A DNA stretch of 64,000 bases from Luteitalea sp. TBR-22 (GTDB lineage Bacteria; Acidobacteriota; Vicinamibacteria; Vicinamibacterales; Vicinamibacteraceae): the NCBI RefSeq assembly GCF_016865485.1, contig NZ_AP024452.1, positions 3,370,501-3,434,500 of the forward strand, in the 5' to 3' direction. Positions within the stretch are counted from its first letter, which is position 1. Each line of letters starts with the position of its first letter. The notes beneath the pieces are model-generated. The model saw only the letters and a list, made by a program, of their open reading frames with translations, searched no databases and was not told where the DNA came from. Positions 6,087 through 56,342 of this stretch are shown here, piece by piece. The translations under genes and the position numbers were made by a program.

Positions 6087-9000
6087 ATGTCGCTCGACTT
6101 GCGATCGCGGGCCCAACGAACGTTGTGGACGCTCGCGCACGCCTGCCTCATTCTCGGCCTCGGCGTCCTTCCCGCCGCCGCCCAGAACATCACCGGCCGC
6201 ATCGACGGCCATGTCAGTGACAGCTCCGGCGGCGTCCTCCCCGGCGCCACCGTGACCGTCCTCAACGAAGGCACCGGCTTCACCCGCACGGTCGTCACCG
6301 ACGAGAACGGCCTGTTCACCGTCACGAGCCTCCCGGTCGGCGCCTACAGCGTCACGGCCGAGCTGCAGGGGTTCCGACGCCAGCAGAAGACGGGCATCCA
6401 GTTGGGCGCCGACGCCCGCATCACCACCGACTTCGCGCTCGGCGTGGGTGAACTGACCGAGTCGGTCGAAGTCACCGCGGTCGCCGGCGAAGTGGTCAAC
6501 CGCACCTCGGGCGAAGTCTCGCGCACCATCGACCAGACGCAGATCAAGGATCTGGCCTTCAACGGCCGCAACTACCTCGAGCTGGCGTCGCTCATCCCCG
6601 GCGCCGTCGCCACCGACTTCGACCCCCTGGCGCTCGCCACGAGCTTGAGCGTCACCGGGCAGTCGATCAATGGCAACCGCGGCAACACCAACAACCTGAC
6701 CGTCGACGGCACGTCGAACCTCGACTCCGGCTCCAACGGCTCGCAGATCAACAACGTGAGCCTGAGCTTCATCGACCAGGTCAAGATCCAGACCTCGAAC
6801 TTCTCCGCCGAGCAGGGCCGCAACTCCGGCGCCGTCGTCAACGTCGTGACGCGCAGCGGCACCAACCGCTTCCGCGGCACCGCCCGCTACGACATCCGCG
6901 ACGAGAAGTTCGACGAGCCGAACTACTTCGCCCCGCGCGACGCCAGCGGCAACCGCACCAAGCCGCCCCTCGAGTTCCGCAACTTCGAGGGCGCCCTCGG
7001 CGGCCCGATCCTGAAGAACAAGCTGTTCTTCTTCGGCGGCCAGCAGTACCGCACCATCAACCGGTTCACCAACCCGAACCGCGTCACCGTGCCGACGACG
7101 GCCGAACTCAATGGCGACCTCTCGTTCCGCCTGCGCGGCGCCGACGGCATCGTCGGCACGGCCGACGACGGCATCCTCCGCGACCCGCAGACCGGGCAGC
7201 AGTTCCCGGGCAACGTGATCCCGCAGAGCCGGATCACCCCCGATGGCCGCGCGTTTGCCAACATCTACCGCGCCATGCAGGGCAAGGCGGCCTCGTTCAC
7301 CGACACACCGACGGCCAACAACGCGACGTTCCAGGAGTACAACCCGTTCGAGCAGCGGCAGGACATCATCCGCATCGACTGGCAGGCGACGCAGAAGCAG
7401 CGTATCTACGGCCGCTACATCCACGACGAGTACAACCTGGTCGAGCCGTTCGGCACCTTCTCGGGGGCCTCGATGCCCACCGTGCCGACCGACCGCTCGC
7501 GTCCGGGCACCAGCTACCAGATCGGCCACACGTACGTGCTGAGCACCAACTTCATCAACGAGGCCAAGGTCGGCGCCTCGTGGAACGGTCAGCGCATCAA
7601 GCCGGTCGGTGACTTCTGGCTGCGCGACACGTTCGGGTTCCAGTATCCCGAGTTGTTCAACGAGCCCGGCTACGTGGCAGGCGGCATCCCCAACGTGTCG
7701 CTGGCCGGCTTTGCCGGGGTGACGGGCCCGAACTTCGCGCTCCTCTCGCCCACCACCGACATCACCTTCCAGGACACGATCACCTGGATCAAGGGCAACC
7801 ACTCGGTGCGCACGGGCGTGGCCATCTCGCGCAACCGCAAGGACCAGAACGGCCGCGGCAACTACTTCGGGTCGGTGAACTTCAACAGCGGCGGCAACCC
7901 CAACAGCACGGGCAACTCGGTCGGCGACATGCTGCTCGGCAACTTCCGCACGTACGACGAGGCCTCGGCCGACCCGGTCGGCTTCTTCCGCTTCACCACG
8001 TATCAGGGCTTCGTGTCCGACACGTGGCGCGTGCGCAACAACCTGAGCCTCGAGGTCGGCCTCCGGTACGAGTACTCGACGCCCACCTACACGTCGGGCA
8101 ACAACCTCGTGAACTTCGACCCGTCGCGGTACGACCCGAACCAGGCCGTCATCGTGCGCACCAACGGCCTGCTCGTCCCCGGCGTCGGCAACCGCTTCAA
8201 CGGCCTGGTCATGGCCGGAGACGGCATCCCCGCGGATCAGGTCGGCCGCGTCGACCTGATCAGTGGTGGTGACTACGACAAGATTCCGTTCGGCGCGCCG
8301 CGCGGGTTGTACGAAGCGCAGCACCTGTTCATGCCCCGTTTCAGCTTCGCGTACTCGCTCAACCCGGAGACGGCCATCCGCGGCGGCGTCGGCCTGTTCT
8401 ACGACAAGCCCGAAGGCAACGTCGTGTTCTCGCAGCTGAACCTGCCGCCGGTGCTCGCCAACACGGTGTACGAGAACTTCAACATCGCCAACCCGTCGAG
8501 CGGCGCGGCCGGCGCGGTGGGCGCGGTGGGCACGATCAACGCGATCGACCCCAACATGAAGCTGCCGTACCAGACCAACTACAGCATCGGCGTGCAGCGC
8601 CAGTTCGGGCGAGGCTACTTCGCCGAGGCCACGTACGTCGGCAACACGGGCCGCAGCCTGATCCGCCAGCCCGACATCAACCGCGCCAGCTTCGACGCCC
8701 TGCGCGCCAACGCCGCGCTGCCCGCCGCCGAGCGCGTCTCGGAGAATTTCCTGCGGCCCTACAAGGGCTACTCGTCGATCCGGATGCGCGTCAGCGACGC
8801 GAGCTCGCAGTACCACTCGATGCAGTTGTACGGCGCCAAGCGCAGCGGCGACTTCCAGTTCACCATCTCGTACACGCTCGGTCGCGTGCTCACCAACGCC
8901 AGCGGCAACGGCGACAACGACACGGTCGACGGCGCCAACGACCTGGACTTCTTCTACGGCCCGGCGACGTTCGACCGTCGTCACGCGTTCATCAACACGC

Positions 9001-20336: not shown

Positions 20337-21884
20337 TTACGCCCAGCTCCCCGCCGAGCGCGCCAGTTCGATCAGGGTACGCACGGCGACGCCCGTCGGG
20401 CCCTTCGGCTGATACGGCTTCGGCTCGTCGGCCCACGCCGTGCCGGCGATGTCGAGGTGCGCCCATGCCGCGTCGCCGGCGAACGCCTTGAGGAAGATGG
20501 CTGCGCTGATCGCCCCACCGTACCGCGTGCCGGCGGCATTGACCATGTCGGCGATGTCGCTCTTGAGCAGTTCCTTGTAGTCGTCGGTCATCGGCAGCGG
20601 CCACAGGAAGTCGCCACCGCGCGTCCCGGCCTCGCGCACGGCGTCGCGCCAGGTGTCCGGCGTACCGAACAGCCCCGAGGCGACGCGCCCGAGGGCGACC
20701 GCGCAGGCGCCGGTGAGGGTCGCGATGTCCACCAGGTGCGTGGCGCCCAGTTGCCGGGCGTACCACAGGGCATCGCCCAGGATCAGTCGTCCCTCGGCGT
20801 CGGTGTTGGTGATCTCGACGGTGAGACCACTGGCGCCCGTCAGGACGTCGCCGGGGCGGAACGCCGTGCCGCTGGGCATGTTCTCCACCGAAGGGATGAC
20901 GCCGATGACCTTGCACGGCGCACCGACCCGCGCCAGTGCGTGGAAGGCGCCCAGGACGGCCGCGCCACCGCACATGTCGTACTTCATGCGGTCCATGTTG
21001 TCGGCGGGCTTGATCGAGATGCCGCCGGTGTCGAACGTCACGGCCTTCCCCACCAGGCCGAGCACCGGGGCTGCCGCGGGTGCGTCCTGCGACTCCCGAC
21101 TCCCGACTCCCGACTCCCGATTGGCATCGGGTTCGTACGTCAGCACGATCATCCGGGGTGCGTTGACACTCCCCTGTGCGACGCCGAGCAGCAGTCCCAT
21201 CTGCTTGTCGCGCAGTGCCGCCTCGTCGAGCACCTCGACCGACACCGGCGTGCCCGCGAACAGCTCGACGGCCCGCTCGGCCAGCACCGCTGGCGTCAGG
21301 ACGTTTGGCGGCTCGTGCGCCACGGCGCGAGCCACGTTGGTCGCCTCGCCGAGGACGCCGCCGAGCGCGACCGCATCGGCCAGCGTCGAGGCCGCACCCT
21401 CGCTCACCACGATGGCGGCCGACTGCAGGTCGGCCAGCTTGCGATCCTTCGTCTTGTAGGCGTCGACATGGAAGGCCGCCAGCGTCAGGCCCTCCGCCAG
21501 GGCACGCACGTGCTCCTCGGCCTGCAAGGCCCCCGACGCGAGAACCGCGACATGCCCCTGTCCGCGGCTGCGCGCCGCCAGGCCGGCGGTCGTGCCGAGC
21601 CGTCGCGCCACGTCGGTGGACATCGACGCTCCGGAGCCCGCGCCGAGCAACAGCACGCGCGGCGACGCCAGCTCGTCGGCACGGAGCCAGTGCATCTCGA
21701 ATGGTTCGCCCTTCAACTCCTTGCCGTCGCGGAGAGCGCCGATGGCCGCCGTCAGCCCGTCGGGAAGCGCCGGTACCGTGCCCTCGGAAGGGACCGGGAC
21801 GACCACGACGTCCGCCTGGACGTCGGCCGGAGCCGCGACGACGAGCCGCAGCGTGGGCATGGTGTAGAACTCGCGCGAAGGCAT
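20337..21884 (-). CDS. pepA: Leucyl aminopeptidase (M17 family)
   Basis: Cytosolic two-metal aminopeptidase that recycles peptides. The M17 signature NTDAEGRL lies near residue 360, and the metal/catalytic lysine region VGKAVTFDTGGISIKP and MKYDMCGGAAV are intact. The N-terminal macrodomain-like half is present. Length 515 residues is normal, but between LTYEPDAN and APAAAPVLGLVGK lies RESGVGSRES, encoded by four perfect GACTCCC heptamers (on the plus strand). This falls in the interdomain/loop segment just before the catalytic core and keeps the frame. ATG at 21884 has a TAGAAT box 8 nt upstream and only a weak AGGG, so the mRNA may be leaderless. Confidence 0.95.
   Translation of the reverse strand: MPSREFYTMPTLRLVVAAPADVQADVVVVPVPSEGTVPALPDGLTAAIGALRDGKELKGEPFEMHWLRADELASPRVLLLGAGSGASMSTDVARRLGTTAGLAARSRGQGHVAVLASGALQAEEHVRALAEGLTLAAFHVDAYKTKDRKLADLQSAAIVVSEGAASTLADAVALGGVLGEATNVARAVAHEPPNVLTPAVLAERAVELFAGTPVSVEVLDEAALRDKQMGLLLGVAQGSVNAPRMIVLTYEPDANRESGVGSRESQDAPAAAPVLGLVGKAVTFDTGGISIKPADNMDRMKYDMCGGAAVLGAFHALARVGAPCKVIGVIPSVENMPSGTAFRPGDVLTGASGLTVEITNTDAEGRLILGDALWYARQLGATHLVDIATLTGACAVALGRVASGLFGTPDTWRDAVREAGTRGGDFLWPLPMTDDYKELLKSDIADMVNAAGTRYGGAISAAIFLKAFAGDAAWAHLDIAGTAWADEPKPYQPKGPTGVAVRTLIELARSAGSWA
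21091..21118. repeat. Heptamer array (GACTCCC x4) inside pepA
   Basis: Four perfect 7-bp units within the pepA coding sequence. The same unit occurs six times at 56257-56298. Twenty-eight bases is not a multiple of three, yet the flanking codons are in frame, so a gain or loss of one unit would frameshift pepA. Confidence 0.85.
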
Positions 21885-24017: not shown

Positions 24018-25421
24018 CTACAATTCGCGATCCACCGGAATCTTCGCGTCGTACTGCTCCTGTCGATACGGCACGAAGCCGACGCGCTGGTAGTTGCGGA
24101 CCGCGGCCGGGTGGTCGAGCGAACAGGTGTGGAGCCACACGCGCTCCGGCTGGCTGGCCCACGCCTCGCGTGCCGCGACCGTCAACAGGGCCGGGCCGAG
24201 ACGCTGGCCGATGAACTCGGGGAGCAGGCCGAAGTAGCAGATCTCGACCTCGTGCGCGGTCCGGTGCAACTCGAAGTAGCCCGCCGGCGTGCCCGCCACC
24301 GTCAGCAGCCAGATCTCGATCCCGCCCGACGCGAGATGCTCGGCAACGCGCGCGTCACTCCAGTCCCACCGGTCGATCCAGTGCCACGGACGTCCGACCT
24401 CGCGGTACAGGTATCGGTACAGCGAGCCCGGCACGACATCGAGGCGGCGCACCACGGCATCCACGTCCGGGAACGCGAACGGCACGACCTGGCTCGCCGC
24501 GCGCATCTCGAGGAACGTGCGGGTCGCCGGACGGTGCAGCAGGCGCGACGACGGGCGGGCCGGCCGCTGGCTCTCGAACGTCGTCCGCCACCGCCGCCCG
24601 TCCTGCAGCACAGGCTGCATGGCCGAGGCGTCGCCAGCGAGCATGTCCGGGGTCGGCAACGCGGCGCGCAAGGCGTCGAGCGCCTGGCCGACGTACGTGG
24701 CGTTGGTGGCCAGGATGTCCAGCCACAGCGCCGGCGCACTGCCGGCCAGTCGCGTGGTGTCCACCAGCCCCGGGCCGGCGAACTGCAGGCCGTCGCTGGT
24801 GACGGCCCTGCCGGTGACGGCCATGAGCGTGCTGCTCACGACCTGCGGCAGGTGGCTCACGTACGCCATCACGTGGTCGTGCTCGTCGGCGCCCATCACG
24901 ACCGGGCGCGCGCCGATGCCCACGACCAGTTGCGTCAGTCGCGCCAGCGCCTCGCCCACCGCACCGGGTCCGAGGGGACTCTCGGCGTCGGGCGTGAGGA
25001 TCCACGGGCGACCGAGGAAGAGTCCGGCGTCGGCGTGCGCGAAGCCGCTGTGCGTGCTGCCCGACATCGGATGCCCGCCGAGGAAGCACACGCCGGCGTG
25101 CGTCCGGGCGTGCCGCACCATCGCGCCCTTCGTGCTGCCGAGATCGGTGACGACGGTCGGCGCAGCCACGTACGGGGCGAAGGCGTCGAGCAGGCGCAGG
25201 TTCTCCAGCACCGGTGCGCCCAGCACCACGAGATCGGCCTCGGCCGCCGCGGCCGGTGACGACACGAGCGTGAAGTGCGCCTTCACGCGTGGGTCGGCCG
25301 CCGGGTCGAGCACGGTGATCGCCACCTCCGGCCACACGGCGCGGATGGCCAGTCCGAGCGACCCGCCGACCAGCCCGCAGCCGACGAGCAGGACGCGGTC
25401 GAAGGGCGCCGGATCGCTCAC
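24018..25421 (-). CDS. tyrA: Prephenate dehydrogenase fused to a GNAT acetyltransferase domain
   Basis: Last gene of the aromatic supra-operon; 467 residues in one frame. Residues 1-285 are TyrA: NAD-binding [13 protein letters not shown], an Asp at the end of beta-2 (VLDPAADP) favouring NAD over [12 protein letters not shown], catalytic His in GGHPMSGS, and [14 protein letters not shown]. The enzyme oxidatively decarboxylates prephenate to 4-hydroxyphenylpyruvate for tyrosine. From about residue 300 a GNAT fold begins ([53 protein letters not shown]), with the Q/RxxGxA-type acetyl-CoA loop as IGQRLGPAL. The acetyl acceptor is unknown. The GTG start overlaps the DAHP synthase stop by 4 nt (GTGA). 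No ACT regulatory domain is seen. Confidence 0.88.
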
Positions 25422-26467
25422 TGGCCCCAACCGCGACGCGCCACCGGCTCCTGGCAGATGCTGCGGCCGATCGCCGGGGCGATGATGCGCAGTTCGGCCA
25501 TCAGCCGCTCGAACTGCCCGGGGAACATCGACTGCGCGCCGTCGCTGAGCGCGTTGTCGGGGTCGCAGTGGACCTCGATCAGCAACCCGTCGGCGCCCGC
25601 GGCGACCGCGGCGCGCGCCATCGGCGCGACCTTGTCGCGCCGGCCCGTGCCGTGGCTCGGGTCCACGAAGATCGGCAGGTGACTGAGCTTCTTCACGACG
25701 GGGATCGCCGAGATGTCCAGCGTGTTGCGCGTGTAGCTCTCGAAGGTGCGGATGCCCCGCTCGCAGAGGATCACGTCCATGTTGCCGCCGGCCAGCACGT
25801 ATTCGGCCGACAGCAGCCACTCCTCGATCGTCGCCGAGATCCCGCGCTTGAGGAGCACCGGTCGTCGCACCTTGCCGAGTTCCCGCAGCAGCGTGAAGTT
25901 CTGCATGTTGCGGGCGCCGACCTGGTAGATGTCGACGTACTTGCCCATCACCTCGATCTGGCTGACGTCCATCACCTCGGACACCAGCTTGAGCCCGTGC
26001 TCGTCGGCGCCGGCGCGAAGCAGCTTCAGCCCCTCCTCGCCGAGCCCCTGGAAGCTGTATGGCGAACTCCGCGGCTTGAACGCGCCGCCACGCAGCACCT
26101 TGGCGCCGGCGCGCCGCACCGCCGCCGCCGTCGTCATGACCTGTTGTTCGTTCTCCGCCGAGCACGGCCCGGCCATCACGATCACCTCGTCGCCGCCGAT
26201 GCGCAGGTCGCCGACGGTGACCACCGTGTCCTCGTTCTTGAACGTGCGGCTGGCCAGCTTGTAGGGCTCGGTGATGCGCATCACCTCCTGCACGCCGTCG
26301 AGCACCTCGAGCAGCCGCGGATCGTGCTTGCCCTGGCCGCCGACCGCGCCGATCACGGTGCGCAGCGACCCGGTGGATCGATGCACGTCGAACCCCATCT
26401 GGACCAGTTGCGCGACAACGCGCTGGATCTGGTCCTCGCTCGCGCGTTCCTCCATCACCACGACCAT
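25418..26467 (-). CDS. aroF: 3-deoxy-7-phosphoheptulonate synthase (type I-beta)
   Basis: First step of the shikimate pathway: phosphoenolpyruvate plus erythrose 4-phosphate to DAHP. An N-terminal ferredoxin-like domain (about residues 1-70) typical of type I-beta enzymes could bind Tyr or Phe for feedback control. The barrel carries [34 protein letters not shown] and the metal/substrate motif [16 protein letters not shown] at 26467 is chosen over an upstream in-frame TTG; the product is 349 residues. A 94-nt gap with a degenerate heptamer array separates it from the chorismate mutase gene, the largest gap within the supra-operon, so a second internal promoter is possible. Confidence 0.93.
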
Positions 26468-26590: not shown

Positions 26591-26896
26591 TCACTCCCGC
26601 TTCCCTTCGTCCTGCGCTTGCGCGGTGACGCGCTCGAGGCGCCTGGCCTCGTCGATGATGCGCTCGAAGAGCCGCATCACGGCGTCGCCGTCGAGGGGCC
26701 CCGGGTTCACGCGCCGCACGTGGTCCAGCACGTCCTTCTCGCGGCCCGGCTGGTAGATCGCCATGCCGATGCGCCGCTTGATCTCGCCGATCTCCAGCGC
26801 GCACGCAGCACGCTCGTTCAACAGCCCGACGATCTGCTCGTCGAGCGCGTCGATCCGATCGCGCAGCGCGCGCATGCGCCAGTCGGGGTCGGTCAT
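26591..26896 (-). CDS. Monofunctional chorismate mutase (AroQ class)
   Basis: 101-residue all-helical chorismate mutase converting chorismate to prephenate. The first helix RIDALDEQIVGLLNERAACA carries the two arginines used for the carboxylates, KRRIGMAIYQPGREKDVL carries the active-site lysine and arginine, and FERIIDEARRLE the C-terminal helix. The ATG overlaps the trpA stop (ATGA). Placing it between trpA and DAHP synthase/tyrA puts the branch to Phe/Tyr in the same transcript as the Trp branch. No prephenate dehydratase gene is in the window. Confidence 0.9.
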   Translation of the reverse strand: MTDPDWRMRALRDRIDALDEQIVGLLNERAACALEIGEIKRRIGMAIYQPGREKDVLDHVRRVNPGPLDGDAVMRLFERIIDEARRLERVTAQAQDEGKRE

Positions 26897-27696
26897 GGCC
26901 GTGCCTCCCGTCCGGTGAGCCAGCGCACGAACCCGCGGACCTCGTCGGCCAGTTGCGGCGACTGGCCGTGCCTGGCGACCTGCGCCACCAGGGCGCTGCC
27001 GACGACGGCCGCGTCGGCGTACCTGCCGACGTCGCGGATGTGCTCGGGCCTCGACAGGCCGAAGCCCAGCGCGATCGGCAGCGTCGAGTCCTGCCGCAGG
27101 CGCTCGACCAACTGCCGCGCGTCGTCGGCCACCTGCTCGCGCACGCCGGTCACGCCCAGCCGCGAGATGGCGTAGAGGAAGCCCTTGCCGAGCGCATCGG
27201 CCTTGCGCACGCGCTCGGCGGTGGTCGTCGGCGAGAGCAGGAAGATGGGCGCGAGCCCGTGAGCGACGAGCACGTCTCGCGTCGGGCCGGCCTCCTCGAG
27301 CGGCAGATCGAGCAGCAGCACGCCGTCGACGCCGACCTCGGCGGCACGGGCGGCGAAGGCCTCGATGCCGAAGCGGACGACGGGATTGGCGTAGCTGAAG
27401 AGCACGAGCGGCGCCTCGACGTCCTTGCGCAGGTCGCCGACCAGGTCGAGCACCCCGCGCAGCGTCGCGCCGGCCCGCAACGCCCGCTCCGACGCGCGCT
27501 GGATCTCGGGGCCGTCGGCCAGCGGGTCGGAGAACGGCACGCCGATCTCGATCACGTCCGCGCCGCCCTCGTCGATCGCCCTGATGACCTCGCCGGATCG
27601 CTCCAGCGTGGGGTCGCCGCCCGAGACGAAGGCGACAAGCCCGGTGCGTCGATCGGTCTTCATCCGCGCGAAGGCCTGTTCGATCCGCGTGCTCAT
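26893..27696 (-). CDS. trpA: Tryptophan synthase alpha subunit
   Basis: TIM-barrel subunit that cleaves indole-3-glycerol phosphate to indole and glyceraldehyde 3-phosphate. Catalytic Glu and Asp sit in [16 protein letters not shown]; the phosphate-binding region is [12 protein letters not shown] plus AAVVGSALV. Length 267 is normal. The ATG overlaps the trpB stop by 4 nt, and its own stop overlaps the chorismate mutase start, so translation is coupled on both sides. Confidence 0.95.
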
Positions 27697-28937
27697 GCCT
27701 GATCTCCGAGCAGGTGCTGGATGCTCTGCACGTCCTTGTCGCCGCGTCCGGAAAGGTTGACCACGACGATCCCCTCGGGGCCGACCTCGTGCGCCACCTG
27801 CTCGACGGCGGCAATCGCGTGCGCCGACTCCAGCGCCGGCAGGATGCCCTCGAGTTGGCCGAGCCGCTGGAAGGCGGCCAGCGCCTCCGGATCGGTGGCG
27901 TAGCGGTACTCGGCGCGCTTCTTCTGCAGCAGGTCGGCGTGCTCAGGGCCGACCGCGGCGTAGTCGAGGCCTGCCGACACCGAATGGGTCAGCGAGATGT
28001 TGCCGGCCTCGTCCTGCAGCACCCACGTGCGCGTGCCTTGCAGCACGCCCGGCACGCCGCCGGCGAAACGCGCCGCATGGCGTCCCGCCACGATCCCTTC
28101 CCCGCCGGCCTCGACGCCGATCAGGCGCACCGACGGATCGGCCACGAACGCGTCGAACAGGCCCATCGCGTTGCTGCCGCCGCCGACGCAGGCGAGGGCG
28201 GCATCGGGCAGTCGTCCGTAGGTCGCCAGGCACTGCGCCCGCGCCTCCTCGCCGATCACCGACTGGAACTCGCGCACCATCAGCGGGTACGGGTGCGGGC
28301 CGAGCGCCGACCCGAGCAGGTAGTACGTGTCGCGCACGGTGGCGACCCAGTCACGCATCGCCTCGTTGATCGCATCCTTCAGCGTCCGCGCGCCGGAGTC
28401 GACGCCCCGGACCTCGGCGCCGAGCATCCGCATCCGGAACACGTTCAGCGCCTGGCGGGCCATGTCGTCGACGCCCATGTACACGACGCATTGCAGCCCG
28501 AGCAGCGCGCACACGGTCGCCGTGGCCACCCCGTGCTGCCCCGCGCCGGTCTCGGCCACGATGCGCGTCTTGCCCATGCGGCGCGCCAGCAGCGCCTGCC
28601 CGAGGGCGTTGTTGATCTTGTGGGCACCGGTGTGCGCGAGGTCTTCCCGCTTGAGCAGGATCGTCGCGCCGCCACAGGCCTCCGTCAGGCGCCGTGCCTC
28701 GTACAGTGGCGTCGGCCGCCCCACGAACTGCCGCAGGAGGTGCTCGAACTCGGCGATGAACGCCTCGTCGCGACGCACCGCCAGGTACGCCTCCTCGAGC
28801 GCCTGAATCGGCGCCACGAGCGTCTCGGGCACGAACCGCCCGCCGAACTCGCCGAAGTACCCGCGGGCATCGGGGTCGCGACGGCCGAACACCGGTCGTC
28901 CCCCTTGTTGCTGCCCTGTCGTCATCATCGCGTCCAT
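27693..28937 (-). CDS. trpB: Tryptophan synthase beta subunit
   Basis: PLP enzyme that condenses indole with serine. The PLP lysine is in [13 protein letters not shown], the substrate loop in [11 protein letters not shown] and the phosphate loop in [13 protein letters not shown] at 28937 is used: AAGGTG lies 6 nt upstream and an extra Gly/Arg-rich extension of the open frame overlaps trpF. The product is 414 residues, of the TrpB1 type that pairs with TrpA. It starts 5 nt after the trpF stop, one of the few non-overlapping joints of the operon. Confidence 0.95.
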
Positions 28938-28942
28938 TCCAT

Positions 28943-29551
28943 TCACCTTGCCTCGCGCACGGCCTGCACGAATGCCCTCACCTTGCCCGGATCCTTCACG
29001 CCCGGCGCCTGCTCCACGCCCGACGCCACATCCACGCCCCACGGGCGCACCATCCGCACCGCATCACCGACGTTGTCGGGCGTCAGGCCGCCCGCCAGCA
29101 CCAGGCGGCGCGTCGCCGCGATCGCCCTGGCCGCCTCCCAGTCCACCGTGCGTCCCGTGCCGCCGATCGTGACCGGGTCGTGCGCGTCCACGAGGATGGC
29201 GGCACGTGCCTGCTGCCACGGGCTGTCGGCGTAGGCCTCGACGGGCATCGCCTTGAGGACCGGCCGCGGGAACCTCGCCCAGTCCAATGGGGTCTCCTGC
29301 CCGTGCAGTTGCACCGCCGACAGGCCCACCGCGTCGGCGATGCTGCGCACCTGATCGGGCGTCTCGTCGACGAACACGCCGACCGTCGCCACCAGCGGCG
29401 GCACCACCCGGGTGATCGCCCGGGCCCGCTCGACGTCGACGGCGCGCCTGCTGCCCGGCCAGAAGATCAGCCCGATCGCGTCGGCGCCCGCGTCCAGCGC
29501 CAGGAGCGCGTCGTCGACCGACGTGATCCCGCAGATCTTGATGCGGGTCAC
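28943..29551 (-). CDS. trpF: Phosphoribosylanthranilate isomerase
   Basis: Catalyses the Amadori rearrangement of N-(5-phosphoribosyl)anthranilate. The catalytic Cys is in the N-terminal [11 protein letters not shown] and the catalytic Asp in [10 protein letters not shown]; the phosphate sites are [10 protein letters not shown] and [15 protein letters not shown]. The GTG start at 29551 overlaps the trpC stop (GTGA). The product has 202 residues, a normal single-domain length, so trpC and trpF are separate here, unlike the enterobacterial fusion. Confidence 0.95.
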
Positions 29552-30417
29552 CGCGAGGCCTCCAGCGCGGCGGTCGCCTCCGCGAGGACCCGCGCCAGGC
29601 CGGCGCCGGGGTCGGCCTCGGTCATGAAGCGCTCGCCGATGAGGAACGCCCCGTAGCCCGCGTCGCTCAAGGCCGCCAGGTCCGCCCCGGAACGCAGGCC
29701 GCTCTCCGCGACGCGCACGGTGGCCGACGCGATGAGGGGCGCCACCCGGTATGACGTGTCCAGCGACACCGCCAGCGTCTTCAGGTTGCGGTTGTTCACC
29801 CCGACGACCGCCGCGCCGGCGTCGATGGCGCGGCGCGCCTCGTCCTCGTCGTGCACTTCGGTGAGCACGTCGAGGCCGACTTGCGCCGCGTAGCCGAGCA
29901 GCCGCTGCAACGCCGCCTGCTCGAGCGCCGCGACGATCAGCAGCACCGCCGACGCGCCAGCCACGGAGGCCTCGGCGATCTGGTACTCGTCGACGACGAA
30001 GTCCTTGCGCAGCAGCGGCAGCGCGGGGTGGGCAGCGTGAACCGCCTCGAGGTGATCGAGCTGGCCGTCGAAGAAGCCCGGTTCGGTGAGCACGGAGATG
30101 GCCGCCGCGCCCGCGCGCCCGTAGCTGCCGGCAATCGCCACGGGGTCGTAGTCGTGGCGCAGCACCCCCCTGGACGGCGACCGCCGCTTGCATTCGGCGA
30201 TCACGCGGATGCCCGGCGCCTGCAGCGCGCGCGTGAACGCGCCGTTCGTCCCGGACGGGCCCCCTGACGGGTCACTTGCCGGACGCGGGGTCGCGGCGCG
30301 ATCGATGAGCACGCGTTCCAGGTCGGCGAGGCTCCGGCGCTCCCGCGCCACCTCCACGCGACGACGCGCGGCGGCGACGATGGTGTCGAGCACGGACGGG
30401 GTGGCGGGCATCGTCAT
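29548..30417 (-). CDS. trpC: Indole-3-glycerol phosphate synthase
   Basis: Closes the indole ring in tryptophan synthesis. Motifs: IAECKRRSPSRG with the substrate-binding Lys, LLRKDFVVDEYQI with the catalytic Lys, VGVNNRNLKTL, and AESGLRSGADL. The 289-residue product begins at an ATG that overlaps the trpD stop by 4 nt (ATGA). A Pro/Ser/Gly-rich insertion (about residues 46-60, ASDPSGGPSGTN) in the N-terminal helical extension is slightly longer than usual. Confidence 0.95.
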   Translation of the reverse strand: MTMPATPSVLDTIVAAARRRVEVARERRSLADLERVLIDRAATPRPASDPSGGPSGTNGAFTRALQAPGIRVIAECKRRSPSRGVLRHDYDPVAIAGSYGRAGAAAISVLTEPGFFDGQLDHLEAVHAAHPALPLLRKDFVVDEYQIAEASVAGASAVLLIVAALEQAALQRLLGYAAQVGLDVLTEVHDEDEARRAIDAGAAVVGVNNRNLKTLAVSLDTSYRVAPLIASATVRVAESGLRSGADLAALSDAGYGAFLIGERFMTEADPGAGLARVLAEATAALEASR

Positions 30418-31441
30418 GCCGTGGCCTCGACGGAGGCCTGCGAGACCTCGACAAGCCGCCGCAACGTGGCGGCCGCCCGGCCGTCGTCGATCGCGGCCGC
30501 GGCGGCGGCGACGCCTTCGGCCACGGCGGGCACGCGGCCGGCGATGAACAGGCCGGCGCCGGCATTGAGGAGGACGATGTCGCGGACCGGTCCGGGTTCG
30601 CCGGCGAGCACGCGACGCGCGACGTCGGCGTTGTAGGCCGCGTCGCCGCCCTTCAGGTCGGCGAGCGTGGCCTTGGCCAGCCCGAACGCGCCGGGGTGCA
30701 CGAAGAACGTGCGCAGCAGCCCGCCGCGGCACTCCGACACCTTCGTGTAGCCGGTCGTCGACAGCTCGTCGAGGCCGTCGGCCGCGTGCACCACCCACAC
30801 GTGCGTCGAGCCGAGCAGGCCGAGCGCCCGCGCGACCAGTTCGGTGAGCTCGGGCCGGGGCACACCGACGAGCTGCCGGGTGGTGCCCGCAGGGTTGGTG
30901 AGCGGCCCGAGCAGGTTGAAGGCGGTGCGCACGCCCAGTTCGCGCCGCACCGGCGCGGCGTGCTTCATGGACGGGTGGAAGGTCGGCGCGAACAGGAACG
31001 CGATGCCCACTTCGTCGAGGCAGCGCGCCACCACGGCCGGCGTGGCGGCGACGTTGACGCCGAGCGCCTCGAAGACGTCGGCGCTGCCGCTGCGACTCGA
31101 CACCGAGCGGTTGCCGTGCTTGGCAACGCGCACGCCGGATGCGGCGAGCACGACGGCCGCCATCGACGAGACGTTCACCGTGCCCGCGTTGTCGCCGCCG
31201 GTCCCGCAGGTGTCGAACACGTCGGCGAAGGCCTGCGGCAGGGGAACGGCCGCGGCGCGCATCGCCCGTGCGAGCCCGACCAGTTCCTCGGGACGCTCGC
31301 CCTTGGATCGCAGCGCCATCAGGAAACCGGCGACCTGCGCCGCCGTGGCCTCGCCGCGCATGATGGCGGCCATCGCGGCGGCGGCCTCGTCGGTGGTGAG
31401 CGGCACGTGCCGCTGCAGTTTCTCGAGCAGGGGCGCGAACA

Positions 31442-31442
<1 letters not shown>
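30414..31442 (-). CDS. trpD: Anthranilate phosphoribosyltransferase
   Basis: Transfers phosphoribose from PRPP to anthranilate. PRPP-binding CGTGGDNAGTVNVS, anthranilate-site KHGNRSVSSRSGSAD, and the metal-binding DE pair in ADGLDELS are visible. The 342-residue product starts at an ATG that shares one base with the trpG stop (TGATG). It is a stand-alone enzyme, not fused to trpG. Confidence 0.95.
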
Positions 31443-32008
<566 letters not shown>

Positions 32009-32010
32009 GG

Positions 32011-33525
32011 CTACCCGGCGTGGCGCCCGAGCGACTGGGCGAGTTCGAGCGCACCGAGCACGGCACGCGCCTTGTTCAGGGTTTCTTCGTACTCGGCGGC
32101 CGGGTGGCTGTCGGCCACGATGCCGGCGCCGGCCTGCACGAAGGCGAGGCCATCGCGCATCCAGACGGTCCGGATGGCGATGCAGCAATCGAGGTTGCCG
32201 GCGAAGTCGAGGTAGCCGACCGCGCCCGCGTACACGCCGCGCGGCCGCCCCTCGAGTTCCGCGATGATCTCCATCGCCCGGATCTTCGGGGCGCCCGACA
32301 CGGTGCCGGCCGGGAAGCACGACACCAGCGCGTCGAGCCGGTCGGCGTCGTCGGCCAGCGTGCCGACCACGCGCGACACCAGGTGCATGACGTGCGAGTA
32401 GCGCTCGAGCGTCATGAACTGCGGCACCCGCACCGAGCCGTACTGGCAGACGCGCCCGAGGTCGTTGCGCCCGAGGTCGACCAGCATCACGTGCTCGGCA
32501 CGTTCCTTCTCGTCGCGCTTCAGCTCCTCACCGAGGCGCAGGTCCTCCTCGTGGGTGCGGCCGCGCGGACGCGTTCCGGCGATCGGGTGCGTCTCGGCCT
32601 GCCCGGCCTCGACGCGCACCAGCATCTCGGGCGACGAACCGACGATGGAGAGGTCGCCGACGCGCATGAAGTACATGTACGGCGAGGGGTTCACGTGGCG
32701 CAGCGCGCGGTACACCGTGAAGGGGTCGGCGTCGAGCTGCACGTCGAACCGTTGCGACAGCACCACCTGGTAGATGTCGCCCTTCTTGATGTAGGCCTGC
32801 GCGGTGCGGACGGCCTGCTCGAAGTCCTCGCGCCTGGTCAGCGGCGTGACCACCGGCGGCGCCGGCGCCGCCTCGCCCCCGGCGATCGGCTGCGCGTGGG
32901 CCTGCTCGAGCTCGCGTTGCAGGAAGTCGAGCCGGGCGTTGGCGAACTGGTACAGCGAGGCCAGGTCGTCGCTGGGCGCGATGCGCGCATTGGCGATGAG
33001 CAGGATGCGGTGCTTCACGTGGTCGAACGCGAGCACCGTGTCGAAGAGCATGAAGGCCGCCTCGTCGCGCGGATCCTGCGCGGCCCGGTAGGCCTGCCAC
33101 GTCTCCTGCAGCTTGGGCTCGAACCACGGCGCTGCGTCGTAGCCGAAGAACCCGACGGCGCCGCCGGTGAAGCGCGGCAGGCCCGGCACGAAGGGCGACC
33201 GGTACTCCGCCATGATGCGCCGCAGCGCCGAGACGAACGTCTCGTCGAGGGCCGACACCTGCCCCCCCTGCTCCATCACGGCCTTGCCGTCGCGGGCCCG
33301 CAGGACCAGGAACGGGTCCTTGCCGAGGAACGAGTAGCGCGCCACCTGCTCGCCGCCCTCGACGCTCTCGAACAGGAACGCGTAATCGGAGTGTTCCGCA
33401 ACGCGCAGGAACGCCGAAACGGGCGTGAGCAGGTCGGCCAGCAGCTCGCGGCACACCGGCACGAAGGTGCCGCGGCCGGCGAGATCGACGAATTCCTCGA
33501 ACGTGGTCTGGGTCATCGCGGACAT
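32011..33525 (-). CDS. trpE: Anthranilate synthase component I
   Basis: Converts chorismate plus ammonia to anthranilate. The N-terminal allosteric motif is [18 protein letters not shown], equivalent to the LLES tryptophan-binding element, so feedback inhibition by Trp is expected. The chorismate-binding domain has [40 protein letters not shown] and [13 protein letters not shown] at 33525 is preferred for GGAGA 4-5 nt upstream; the alternative ATG at 33516 would give the 4-nt ATGA overlap with aroDE seen elsewhere. Length 504. Confidence 0.95.
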
Positions 33526-35012
33526 GGGGTCTCCGGCACGAGGGCCAGCTGGGGGGCCTCGGCATGGATGGCGGCGCGCATGGCGTCGAGCGGCGGGGCG
33601 ACGCCGAACCAGGTGGCCACCTGCACGCCCGCCTGGCCAATCAGCATCTCGAGCCCGCCGAGGGTGTCGCACCCCGCAGCCGCCGCCTCGCGCAGCAGCC
33701 GGGTGCGCCCCGGGTTGTAGACGAGGTCGTACACGAGGCCACCGCTCGTCAGGCGGTCGGCGTCGATGGGCGTGGCGTCGCTGGCGCCGTCGTGCGACGC
33801 GGTGCCGACCGGCGTCGTGTTGACCAGCACGTCCCAGGTGCCGGGCTCGGGACTGGCCTGGCCGGCGCGGGCGCCGAGCGCCACGAGCTGCTCGGCCTGC
33901 TCGCGGCGACGCGCATGCACCGTGGGCGCCGCCCCGGCGTCGACCAGGCCGGCGACGACGGCCCGGGCGGCGCCGCCGGCGCCGAGCACCGCGACCCGCA
34001 GGCCCGACAGGACCCGGCCGGTGCGCGCGAGCCGGTCGCGCAACGGCTGGAGGAAGCCCTCGACGTCGGTGTTGCGCGCGGCCCAGCCGCCCTCCACGCG
34101 GGTCAGCGTGTTGGCGGCGCCGAGGCGCGTCGCCAGCTCGTCGGCGCGGACGGCCGCCGCCAGCGCATCGAGCTTGAACGGCGCGGTGACGCTGAGGCCG
34201 CGGACGTCGAGCGCCTCGGCCATCGTGAGCAGGTCGCCGATGTCCTGCGCCTCGAAGGGGACGTACACGCCATCGACGCCGAGCGCGCGAAGCGCCGCGT
34301 TGTGCAGCGTCGGCGACCAGGAGTGGCTGATGGGCCGCCCCGCGACGCCGAACACCTGCGTGGTCGGTCCCTGCTGCCCGACGCGGTAGCGCGCGCGCAT
34401 CACCTCCGGACGCACCTGCCCCGGCGCAACGGCCGCTCCGCCGTACGTCCAGTGCGATCCCAACCGGGAGGGCAGCAGGCGCGACGGCAGGCCCACCGGG
34501 CCCATCGCGATGAGCACCAGCGGCACGTCGCCAGCGGCCGGAGCCGCCGCGCGGAATGCGAGCTGGTCGGTGAGGCGGGTCGGCGTGACCGCCAGCTTCA
34601 CGACGCCCGGCCGGCGCGCCGCCATCGCCGAGACCAGAGCGGCCAGGTCGGCCGGCATCCCCTTGAAGTCGTGTCGCGACAGGATCACCCGCCCCGGGAA
34701 CGCCGCGATGAAGTCGTCGGCAAAGGGCGCGTCCCACTCGACGTCCACGTAGGCCGCGCCGTGCGTCAGCGCCTCGCGCAGGCGCGCCTCGCGCGCCGAC
34801 TCCTCGCCCTCGAATCGCCCGCCTTCGCGGACCGGCCGGAACGTCACCACGGCCCGGCTCGCGGCCTCCCCCATCACCTCGGCCACCGGCAACGGCGGCA
34901 ACCGGTCGAGCCTGAGCTCCACCAGGTCGGCAACGCGCAGCGCCTCGGCCCGCGCGGCGGGCAGGGCGTCGACGCTCAGGTCGGCCAGGGTGGAGACGAG
35001 GGTGGTCGGCAT
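33513..35012 (-). CDS. Bifunctional 3-dehydroquinate dehydratase / shikimate dehydrogenase
   Basis: 499-residue fusion carrying out two consecutive shikimate steps. Residues 1-220 are a type I (class I aldolase) dehydroquinase with the catalytic His in VILSRHDFKGMP and the Schiff-base Lys in VVKLAVTPTR. Residues 221-499 are AroE: FGVAGRPISHSWSPTLHN, catalytic Lys in SVTAPFKLDAL, GAANTLTR, catalytic Asp in RNTDVEGF, NADP-binding VAVLGAGGAARAVVAG. The order AroD-AroE is the same as in plant DHQ-SDH. It is the first structural gene after the Trp attenuator, so a general-pathway enzyme is placed under tryptophan control together with trpEGDCFBA. Confidence 0.93.
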   Translation of the reverse strand: MPTTLVSTLADLSVDALPAARAEALRVADLVELRLDRLPPLPVAEVMGEAASRAVVTFRPVREGGRFEGEESAREARLREALTHGAAYVDVEWDAPFADDFIAAFPGRVILSRHDFKGMPADLAALVSAMAARRPGVVKLAVTPTRLTDQLAFRAAAPAAGDVPLVLIAMGPVGLPSRLLPSRLGSHWTYGGAAVAPGQVRPEVMRARYRVGQQGPTTQVFGVAGRPISHSWSPTLHNAALRALGVDGVYVPFEAQDIGDLLTMAEALDVRGLSVTAPFKLDALAAAVRADELATRLGAANTLTRVEGGWAARNTDVEGFLQPLRDRLARTGRVLSGLRVAVLGAGGAARAVVAGLVDAGAAPTVHARRREQAEQLVALGARAGQASPEPGTWDVLVNTTPVGTASHDGASDATPIDADRLTSGGLVYDLVYNPGRTRLLREAAAAGCDTLGGLEMLIGQAGVQVATWFGVAPPLDAMRAAIHAEAPQLALVPETPCPR

Positions 35013-35019
35013 ACGTGAA

Positions 35020-35047
35020 GTCTCGGGACTCAGGGTTCAGGGCTCAG
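35020..35047. repeat. Degenerate heptamer array between attenuator and aroDE
   Basis: Units GTCTCGG, GACTCAG, GGTTCAG, GGCTCAG at 7-bp spacing, lying 8 nt before the aroDE ATG and therefore in its translation-initiation region. Confidence 0.5.
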
Positions 35048-35108
35048 AAAGCATGCTGACGGGCATCTGTGTGTTCTCTGAGCCTCGAGCCGGGGATCTT
35101 TCGTCGTG

Positions 35109-35149
35109 AAAAACAAAAAGCGCCCGTTCGGCGGAGGCCGAAGGGGCGC
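35109..35149 (-). terminator. Trp attenuator terminator (region 3:4 hairpin plus U tract)
   Basis: On the minus strand: arm GCGCCCCTTCGGC, loop CTCC, arm GCCGAACGGGCGC (12 of 13 pairs, one C-C mismatch), then TTTTTGTTTTT. A textbook intrinsic terminator 37 nt downstream of the leader-peptide stop and about 95 nt before aroDE. Its 5' arm can alternatively pair with 35195-35206 inside the leader peptide gene. Confidence 0.92.
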
Positions 35150-35185
35150 CAGGTTCCGGTCGTGACGGTGCTGGTCGATACGCGG

Positions 35186-35299
35186 CTAGACGGCCGCCCC
35201 CTCGGCTCTGGAGCCAGACCACCACCAATACCGCGCCGAAAACGGCACGCGGCTGGAGGCCGGCTGCGAGACGAAGGAGGTGGCGGCGATGACCCGCAT
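35186..35299 (-). CDS. trpL: Trp leader peptide with three consecutive Trp codons
   Basis: 37-codon open frame MRVIAATSFVSQPASSRVPF... containing Tyr-Trp-Trp-Trp at residues 24-27 (Trp codons at 35227-35219) and ending TAG at 35188-35186. It precedes the terminator/antiterminator pair and the aroDE-trp operon on the same strand. Low charged tRNA-Trp would stall a ribosome at the triple Trp, release region 2 and allow read-through; adequate Trp would let the ribosome reach the stop and favour termination. No Shine-Dalgarno is visible; a TACGGT box lies 9 nt upstream, so the leader mRNA may start almost at the ATG. The arrangement matches the enterobacterial logic but not its sequence. Confidence 0.88.
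   Translation of the reverse strand: MRVIAATSFVSQPASSRVPFSARYWWWSGSRAEGAAV
35195..35206 (-). promoter_or_regulatory. Antiterminator segment (region 2) of the Trp attenuator
   Basis: Minus-strand GCCGAGGGGGCG overlaps the last sense codons of the leader peptide, 12 nt after the Trp codons. It pairs over 12 bp (one G-U) with CGCCCCTTCGGC (35137-35148), the 5' arm of the terminator. It can also pair with GCCGCCACCTC near the leader start (10 of 11 bp). A ribosome stalled on the Trp codons would free it; one at the stop codon would cover it. Confidence 0.8.
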
Positions 35300-35308
35300 G
35301 TGAGAGGC

Positions 35309-35338
35309 ACCGTACCAGAGTCGTCCGAACTGCGTCAA
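35309..35338 (-). promoter_or_regulatory. Promoter of the trpL-aroDE-trp supra-operon
   Basis: Minus-strand TTGACG (35338-35333), 18-nt spacer, TACGGT (35314-35309). Initiation about 7 nt further on would fall 2-3 nt before the trpL ATG at 35299. A TrpR-type operator is not recognisable. Confidence 0.5.
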
Positions 35339-49258: not shown

Positions 49259-49269
49259 GACCAACGGCC

Positions 49270-49338
49270 GACTGCCCACTGCCCACTGCCGACTGCCGAC
49301 TGCCGACTGCCGACTGCCCACTGCCGACTGCCGACTAG
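49270..49338. repeat. Heptamer array (GACTGCC/CACTGCC, nearly 10 units)
   Basis: Six GACTGCC and three CACTGCC units plus a final partial GACTAG. The last partial unit runs directly into the TAGAAT box of the PASTA-domain gene. It is one of the two longest arrays in the window. Confidence 0.9.
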
Positions 49339-56201: not shown

Positions 56202-56326
56202 GGCAGTGGGCAGTCGGCGGGTCGGCAGTCGACGGCCGCTCGCAGCTGCCGCCTCCGACTCCCGACTCCCGACTCCCGACTCCCGACTCCCGACTCCCGA
56301 CTGCCGACTGCCGACTGCCGACTGCC
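56202..56326. repeat. Inverted heptamer arrays (GGCAGTC ... GACTCCC x6, GACTGCC x4)
   Basis: 56202-56230 carries GGCAGTG, GGCAGTC and GGCAGTC units, the reverse complement of GACTGCC. 56257-56298 has six GACTCCC and 56299-56326 four GACTGCC. The two halves can pair into a long hairpin after the phosphohexomutase gene. Confidence 0.9.
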
Positions 56327-56342
56327 GAGCCTAGACACATGA

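Follow-up and report, generated by a model that had tools for sequence, protein, structure and literature searches.

Attenuation of amino acid operons by a translating ribosome is known from Escherichia coli, where the trp operon is preceded by trpL, a leader with Trp codons in which a 2:3 helix competes with a 3:4 helix, the system ending in a terminator with a T tract. The ilvGMEDA and thr leaders of the same organism are multivalent and sense Ile, Val and Leu or Thr and Ile, respectively. Bacillus subtilis, by comparison, regulates an aro-trp-his supraoperon by the TRAP protein. For Trp, attenuators have been described from both Proteobacteria and Actinobacteria, and those of Corynebacterium and Streptomyces combine double or triple UGG codons with a classical antiterminator and terminator (PMC1262725). 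Among the attenuators predicted for Acidobacteria in a survey from 2010, almost none had an assigned function (PMC2965389). No acidobacterial trp attenuator was found in the open literature that we searched, which excludes Lopatovskaya et al. 2010 (cited in PMC4833913); a preliminary description of this DNA likewise knew of no described case in the phylum.

The window analyzed here is a stretch of 64,000 nucleotides from Luteitalea sp. TBR-22, whose genome is a single contig of 6,468,984 bases. The features in front of its fused aroDE gene (Table 1) are best explained, with a probability of about 0.93, by a ribosome-mediated attenuator that would sense charged tRNA-Trp and control an aroDE-trpEGDCFBA-chorismate mutase-aroF-tyrA operon. 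Like the E. coli trp attenuator (trpL; Rfam Trp_leader), the locus has consecutive Trp codons, a short distance from these to region 2, competing 2:3 and 3:4 helices and a T-tract terminator. It differs in that region 2 is encoded within the leader reading frame and followed by the stop codon, the start codon lies almost at the predicted transcript start, aroDE is the first gene, Tyr stands beside Trp, a 1:2 stem lacks support, and the Rfam Trp leader model does not match. With Corynebacterium and Streptomyces it shares the double or triple UGG and a classical antiterminator/terminator outside the Proteobacteria, but their motif gGCC-rGCy-GGCC contrasts with the GAAGAGGC-type found here, and phylum and operon content differ. 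As in the B. subtilis supraoperon, aromatic, trp and tyrA genes (and, in a sister order, his genes) form one unit, which would be controlled by the leader ribosome instead of TRAP. The mechanism itself is classical; new to the open literature searched are the phylum, the target gene, the placement of region 2 in the reading frame and the Tyr codons. An acidobacterial attenuator is hereby given a predicted function that is backed by covariation across an entire order.

Table 1. Features of the attenuator locus and of the operon behind it (positions in the window).
Feature	Position	Strand	Basis
-35 hexamer TTGACG	35333..35338	-	sequence; promoter-like
-10 hexamer TACGGT	35309..35314	-	sequence; 18-nt spacer to -35
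Leader peptide ORF, 37 codons + stop	35186..35299	-	sequence; peptide MRVIAATSFVSQPASSRVPFSARYWWWSGSRAEGAAV
Proposed segment 1 GCCGCCACCTC, probably chance	35277..35287	-	shuffle test, no enrichment in relatives
Control codons Tyr-Trp-Trp-Trp TATTGGTGGTGG, residues 24-27	35219..35230	-	sequence
Region 2, antiterminator strand GCCGAGGGGGCG, within leader ORF	35195..35206	-	sequence + comparison
Region 3, terminator 5' arm, common to both alternative helices	35137..35150	-	sequence + covariation
Region 4, terminator 3' arm	35119..35132	-	sequence + covariation
T tract of intrinsic terminator TTTTTGTTTTT	35109..35119	-	sequence
Dispersed intergenic repeat between attenuator and aroDE	35019..35091	-	genome comparison
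aroDE, fused 3-dehydroquinate dehydratase / shikimate dehydrogenase	33513..35012	-	NCBIfam
trpE	32011..33525	-	NCBIfam
trpG	31442..32008	-	NCBIfam
trpD	30414..31442	-	NCBIfam
trpC	29548..30411	-	ORF reading + operon position
trpF	28943..29551	-	NCBIfam
trpB	27693..28937	-	NCBIfam
trpA	26893..27696	-	NCBIfam
Chorismate mutase	26591..26896	-	NCBIfam
DAHP synthase (aroF type)	25418..26467	-	NCBIfam
tyrA, one open frame with GNAT acetyltransferase-like domain	24018..25421	-	NCBIfam; GNAT by sequence reading

The leader reading frame opens with an ATG at 35299, closes with a TAG at 35188-35186 and is equally long in four congeneric species; the 37 codons and the Tyr-Trp-Trp-Trp run are located exactly as first described. 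Ahead of it, and unmentioned in that description, lies the promoter-like sequence TTGACG-18 nt-TACGGT (35338-35309), and the leader ATG begins 9 nt after the end of the -10 hexamer. TTGAC occupies the -35 place in 78 of the 79 loci with a recognizable promoter. Because in relatives with a clear promoter a median of only 13 nt separates the -10 element from the first in-frame start codon, the leader mRNA, with the transcription start we infer, is probably leaderless or has a very short 5' end. Comparison of the four congeners revealed no codon-position bias in the leader, and hence no coding signal to prove its presumed translation; the N-terminal part of the peptide is not conserved either. 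The latter bears on a possible second role, in trans, of the leader RNA or peptide after its release, for which the trans-acting Trp leader peptide peTrpL of Sinorhizobium offers a precedent (PMC7298713); with an unconserved N-terminus and nothing indicating a target, such an additional role appears improbable.

The terminator hairpin (35150-35119) forms 12 of 13 bp with an energy of approximately -24 kcal/mol and runs directly into the T tract, from the start of which it is 107 nt to aroDE (start 35012). A standard terminator scan missed it, apparently due to the internal mismatch, and terminators were located by a purpose-written search. Region 2 (GCCGAGGGGGCG) pairs with CGCCCCTTCGGC of the terminator 5' arm over 12 bp including one G-U, a pairing that exceeds dinucleotide-shuffled sequences by 5 SD (p ~0.005, the lowest value that 200 shuffles can give). 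Terminator and 2:3 pairing were thus found in the window as the preliminary description had given them. An RNA starting just past a ribosome stalled at the Trp codons is predicted to adopt the antiterminator fold even when the full terminator has been transcribed.

Of 193 genomes of the class, 175 contain a relative of the fused aroDE, and 130 regions upstream of aroDE orthologs in the class were taken, 114 of them from the order Vicinamibacterales. A terminator precedes aroDE in 120 of these 130 regions, with a median energy of about -23.6 kcal/mol in the Vicinamibacterales. Just before region 2, at least two in-frame Trp codons are present at 111 and at least three at 84 of the 114 Vicinamibacterales loci. 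Region 2 lies inside the leader frame in 106 of the 114, most often starting 7-12 nt past the last Trp codon, and is separated from the terminator by 34-49 nt (5th to 95th percentile, 114 loci). The stop codon follows the core of region 2 at a median of 13 nt and precedes the terminator by 27 nt; in the window it is only 6 nt beyond region 2, compared with approximately 13 nt in the typical relative. In a close relative (the MAG Ga0077522, L010 = L219), the leader and the 3' arm of the terminator are present whereas the 5' arm is missing, possibly through natural loss or through a gap in the assembly at this hairpin.

Covariation was assessed in an alignment of 76 loci. Here, the 2:3 helix is 82.5% paired and contains 48 cells changed on both sides, a number reached by none of 500 shuffles, and pairing falls to 38-53% when the helix is slid by 1-3 columns as a control. 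For the 3:4 helix, pairing reaches 95.4%, and 59 cells are changed on both sides. With region 3 being part of both helices, the most telling evidence is a triple change: wherever region 3 has C instead of T at column 134, regions 2 and 4 both have G (12 of 12 rows), with Fisher probabilities of 7e-6 and 5e-6 that are optimistic owing to the relatedness of the rows, although the change occurs in five families (f1, f2, f8, f12, and f13). Triple changes were likewise observed at columns 137 (6 of 6 rows, families f15 and f8) and 136 (5 of 5 rows, family f2). Trp codons and both pairings are hence conserved with compensatory changes, the outcome that had been named in advance as supportive. The refuting case, relatives devoid of the Trp run or of the alternative pairings, was looked for and did not materialize, with just 3 of the 114 loci below two Trp codons.

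A covariance model built from this alignment gave one match in the genome of the window (E = 5.7e-17; next best 0.06). It also recognized, at E below 1e-12 and on the aroDE strand, 36 of 38 aroDE loci from named Vicinamibacterales; many of the matched genomes contributed to the model, and the informative contrast is therefore with 36 aroDE loci of other lineages, none of which was matched (best E 0.14). Of the two remaining named loci, one (L219) is a weak match whose terminator arm is missing and the other (L225) is almost without sequence before the gene. The named carriers of the element belong to the Vicinamibacterales and Vicinamibacteraceae of the Acidobacteriota.

These comparisons bear on two further explanations, namely that a small reading frame lies by chance next to a constitutive terminator, or that TRAP, TrpR or a T-box regulates the operon. 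GC-rich sequence makes such frames common, and three Trp codons in one frame have a chance probability of about 0.04 if only the window is considered. The order-wide conservation and the covariation of both helices, however, make it certain at the level of sequence comparison that the Trp run and the 2:3 pairing exceed chance. As for the known regulators, each was searched for without success: the 6.47 Mb single-contig genome contains no match to PF02081 (TRAP), nothing in it reached the cut-off for TrpR, the Rfam Trp_leader and T-box models were unmatched at the gathering score and up to E 10, and no other plausible Rfam family was matched. We thus regard a chance reading frame or one of these regulators as very improbable. 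What the locus does possess is a cluster of codons for the product of the operon, a terminator, a covarying antiterminator and a spacing compatible with a ribosome, the features that characterize attenuators of the ribosome-mediated class.

In the mechanism that we propose, RNA polymerase would start a few bases ahead of the leader ATG and yield a leaderless or nearly leaderless mRNA. When Trp is scarce, the ribosome would halt on the Trp codons and leave region 2 free or nearly so, and region 2 could pair with region 3 before region 4 exists, in which case no terminator would form and the operon would be transcribed. With Trp in plentiful supply, the ribosome would reach the stop codon a short way beyond region 2 and cover the latter, so that the 3:4 terminator would form and release an RNA of approximately 190 nt in vivo. 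In the full transcript, the antiterminator is the minimum-energy equilibrium fold at only 3 of 112 loci, for which reason a co-transcriptional test was adopted: as long as region 4 is absent, 2:3 is predicted to form at 113 of 114 loci, against a high value of 64% for shuffled controls. When a ribosome occupies the stop codon, the terminator is predicted to form at all 112 loci. As 3:4 is the more stable helix in the full transcript of most relatives, antitermination must be kinetic.

Because region 2 is part of the reading frame and the stop codon follows some 13 nt beyond, the ribosome itself can mask region 2, and this layout indicates direct masking in place of a 1:2 stem. The preliminary description had instead suggested the enterobacterial four-segment version, in which a 1:2 stem rather than the ribosome frees region 3 for termination. 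A pairing of 10-11 bp between 35277-35287 and region 2 does exist in the window; a leader free of ribosomes folds into the 1:2 stem plus the terminator. This pairing is, however, a mere 0.7 SD above shuffles in the window and at chance level across the 114 loci (mean 0.5 SD, median 0.26 SD), and at the 106 loci with region 2 inside the frame the terminating ribosome would cover it anyway. We consider the four-segment version unlikely: the 1:2 stem, which in the enterobacterial arrangement frees region 3 and serves as the pause site, is here no better than chance, and it is not needed as an anti-antiterminator. Of the original proposal of Trp attenuation for an aroDE-trp supra-operon, the control codons, both conserved pairings and the mutual exclusion of 2:3 and 3:4 stand, whereas the 1:2 stem, though it can be drawn, is neither conserved nor above chance.

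The eleven genes from aroDE to tyrA that had been assigned to the operon were confirmed by their ORFs and by NCBIfam. Its last gene encodes a possible TyrA-GNAT fusion, and the same single frame is present at one further locus (L145, G001). Tyr codons occur within two codons of Trp 120 times, compared with 25.5 +/- 4.7 expected from 500 shuffles of codons within leaders (maximum 41), an excess whose independence is overstated by the shuffle as the loci are related, and Tyr adjoins the Trp run at 98 of 114 loci. Both TAT (79) and TAC (41) are used, and Tyr is hence not fixed at the RNA level. Depending on the family, it precedes, interrupts or follows the Trp run (YWWW, WWYW, WWWYY); position varies while content stays, which suggests selection on codon content and makes sensing of Tyr possible. 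Shortage of Tyr might then also relieve termination, in extension of Trp attenuation and not to its exclusion. Such a mixed aromatic sensor would suit an operon whose genes include DAHP synthase, aroDE, chorismate mutase and tyrA besides trp. In one family, Phe takes the place of Tyr beside the Trp run. On the other hand, there is usually one Tyr codon to about three Trp codons, and families f10 and f11 have no Tyr at all; we put this extension at slightly below even odds. The E. coli ilvGMEDA and thr leaders are alike in having more than one kind of control codon matching the products of the pathway, but sense Ile/Val/Leu or Thr/Ile in place of the putative combination of Trp with Tyr. If the extension is correct, a single leader gauges the aromatic supply for the shared shikimate steps, the trp genes and tyrA.

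In family f16, which belongs to a sister order within the class, a His-rich leader, for example MTTPAQNPLGPVWRGSVHHHRHHS or MTIVRRWRATVHHHRYHA, and a terminator stand before aroDE; His-type leaders with one conserved Trp, followed by an aroDE-thiF-his-trp operon, were found at L116, L117, L118, L119, L134, L136, and L141-L144. At L141, the gene order is aroDE, a ThiF protein, a HisRS-like protein, hisG, hisD, an aminotransferase, hisB, two His_biosynth proteins and hisIE, followed by trpE, G, D, C, and F. In this order, the leader of the orthologous aroDE appears to have switched to His where his genes separate aroDE from trpE. Taken jointly, a three-segment, near-leaderless class of attenuators in the Acidobacteriota in which the last codons of the leader form the antiterminator, Trp and Tyr are read together and the sister order has switched to His is a tentative proposal, about which we are a little more doubtful than confident. 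It would provide a testable case of a leader amino acid changing as the operon behind it changes.

Leaders of this kind are not confined to aroDE. The genome of the window has a leader MACRSQHHHHHHHAHVRGTGDGLRAC and a terminator before hisG (L299 6232-6400, G000:C1:6158232), an apparent histidine attenuator that is matched in other species of the genus. Via the model, Trp leaders were found before trpB in other acidobacterial families (L197, L198, L202, and L203), one of these loci having aroF behind trpB, and a compact leader MRATSNWWWYC precedes aroDE-trpE in another family of the phylum (L199). This case aside, 36 loci outside the class contained no attenuator before aroDE. Val/Leu-rich leaders MTRTTILLLLVLVLVLVTQGAN with the same layout of region 2 and terminator (L200, L201, and L205) look like branched-chain attenuators; no leader was found in the examined stretch of the ilv operon in the genome of the window. 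Many of the weakest matches of this wider model search are ordinary terminators. The His, trpB-associated Trp and Val/Leu leaders suggest that ribosome-mediated attenuation is in general use for amino acid operons across this phylum, which is abundant in soil.

The intergenic repeat between the attenuator and aroDE resembles 39 other places in the genome (73-96% identity). Tandem arrays of seven bases (GCCGACT / CCGACTC and similar) occur in the window at 49267-49336, 56255-56328, and 21090-21120, and elsewhere in this genome a GGGAGTC array separates the His attenuator from hisG (L299 ~6395-6450).
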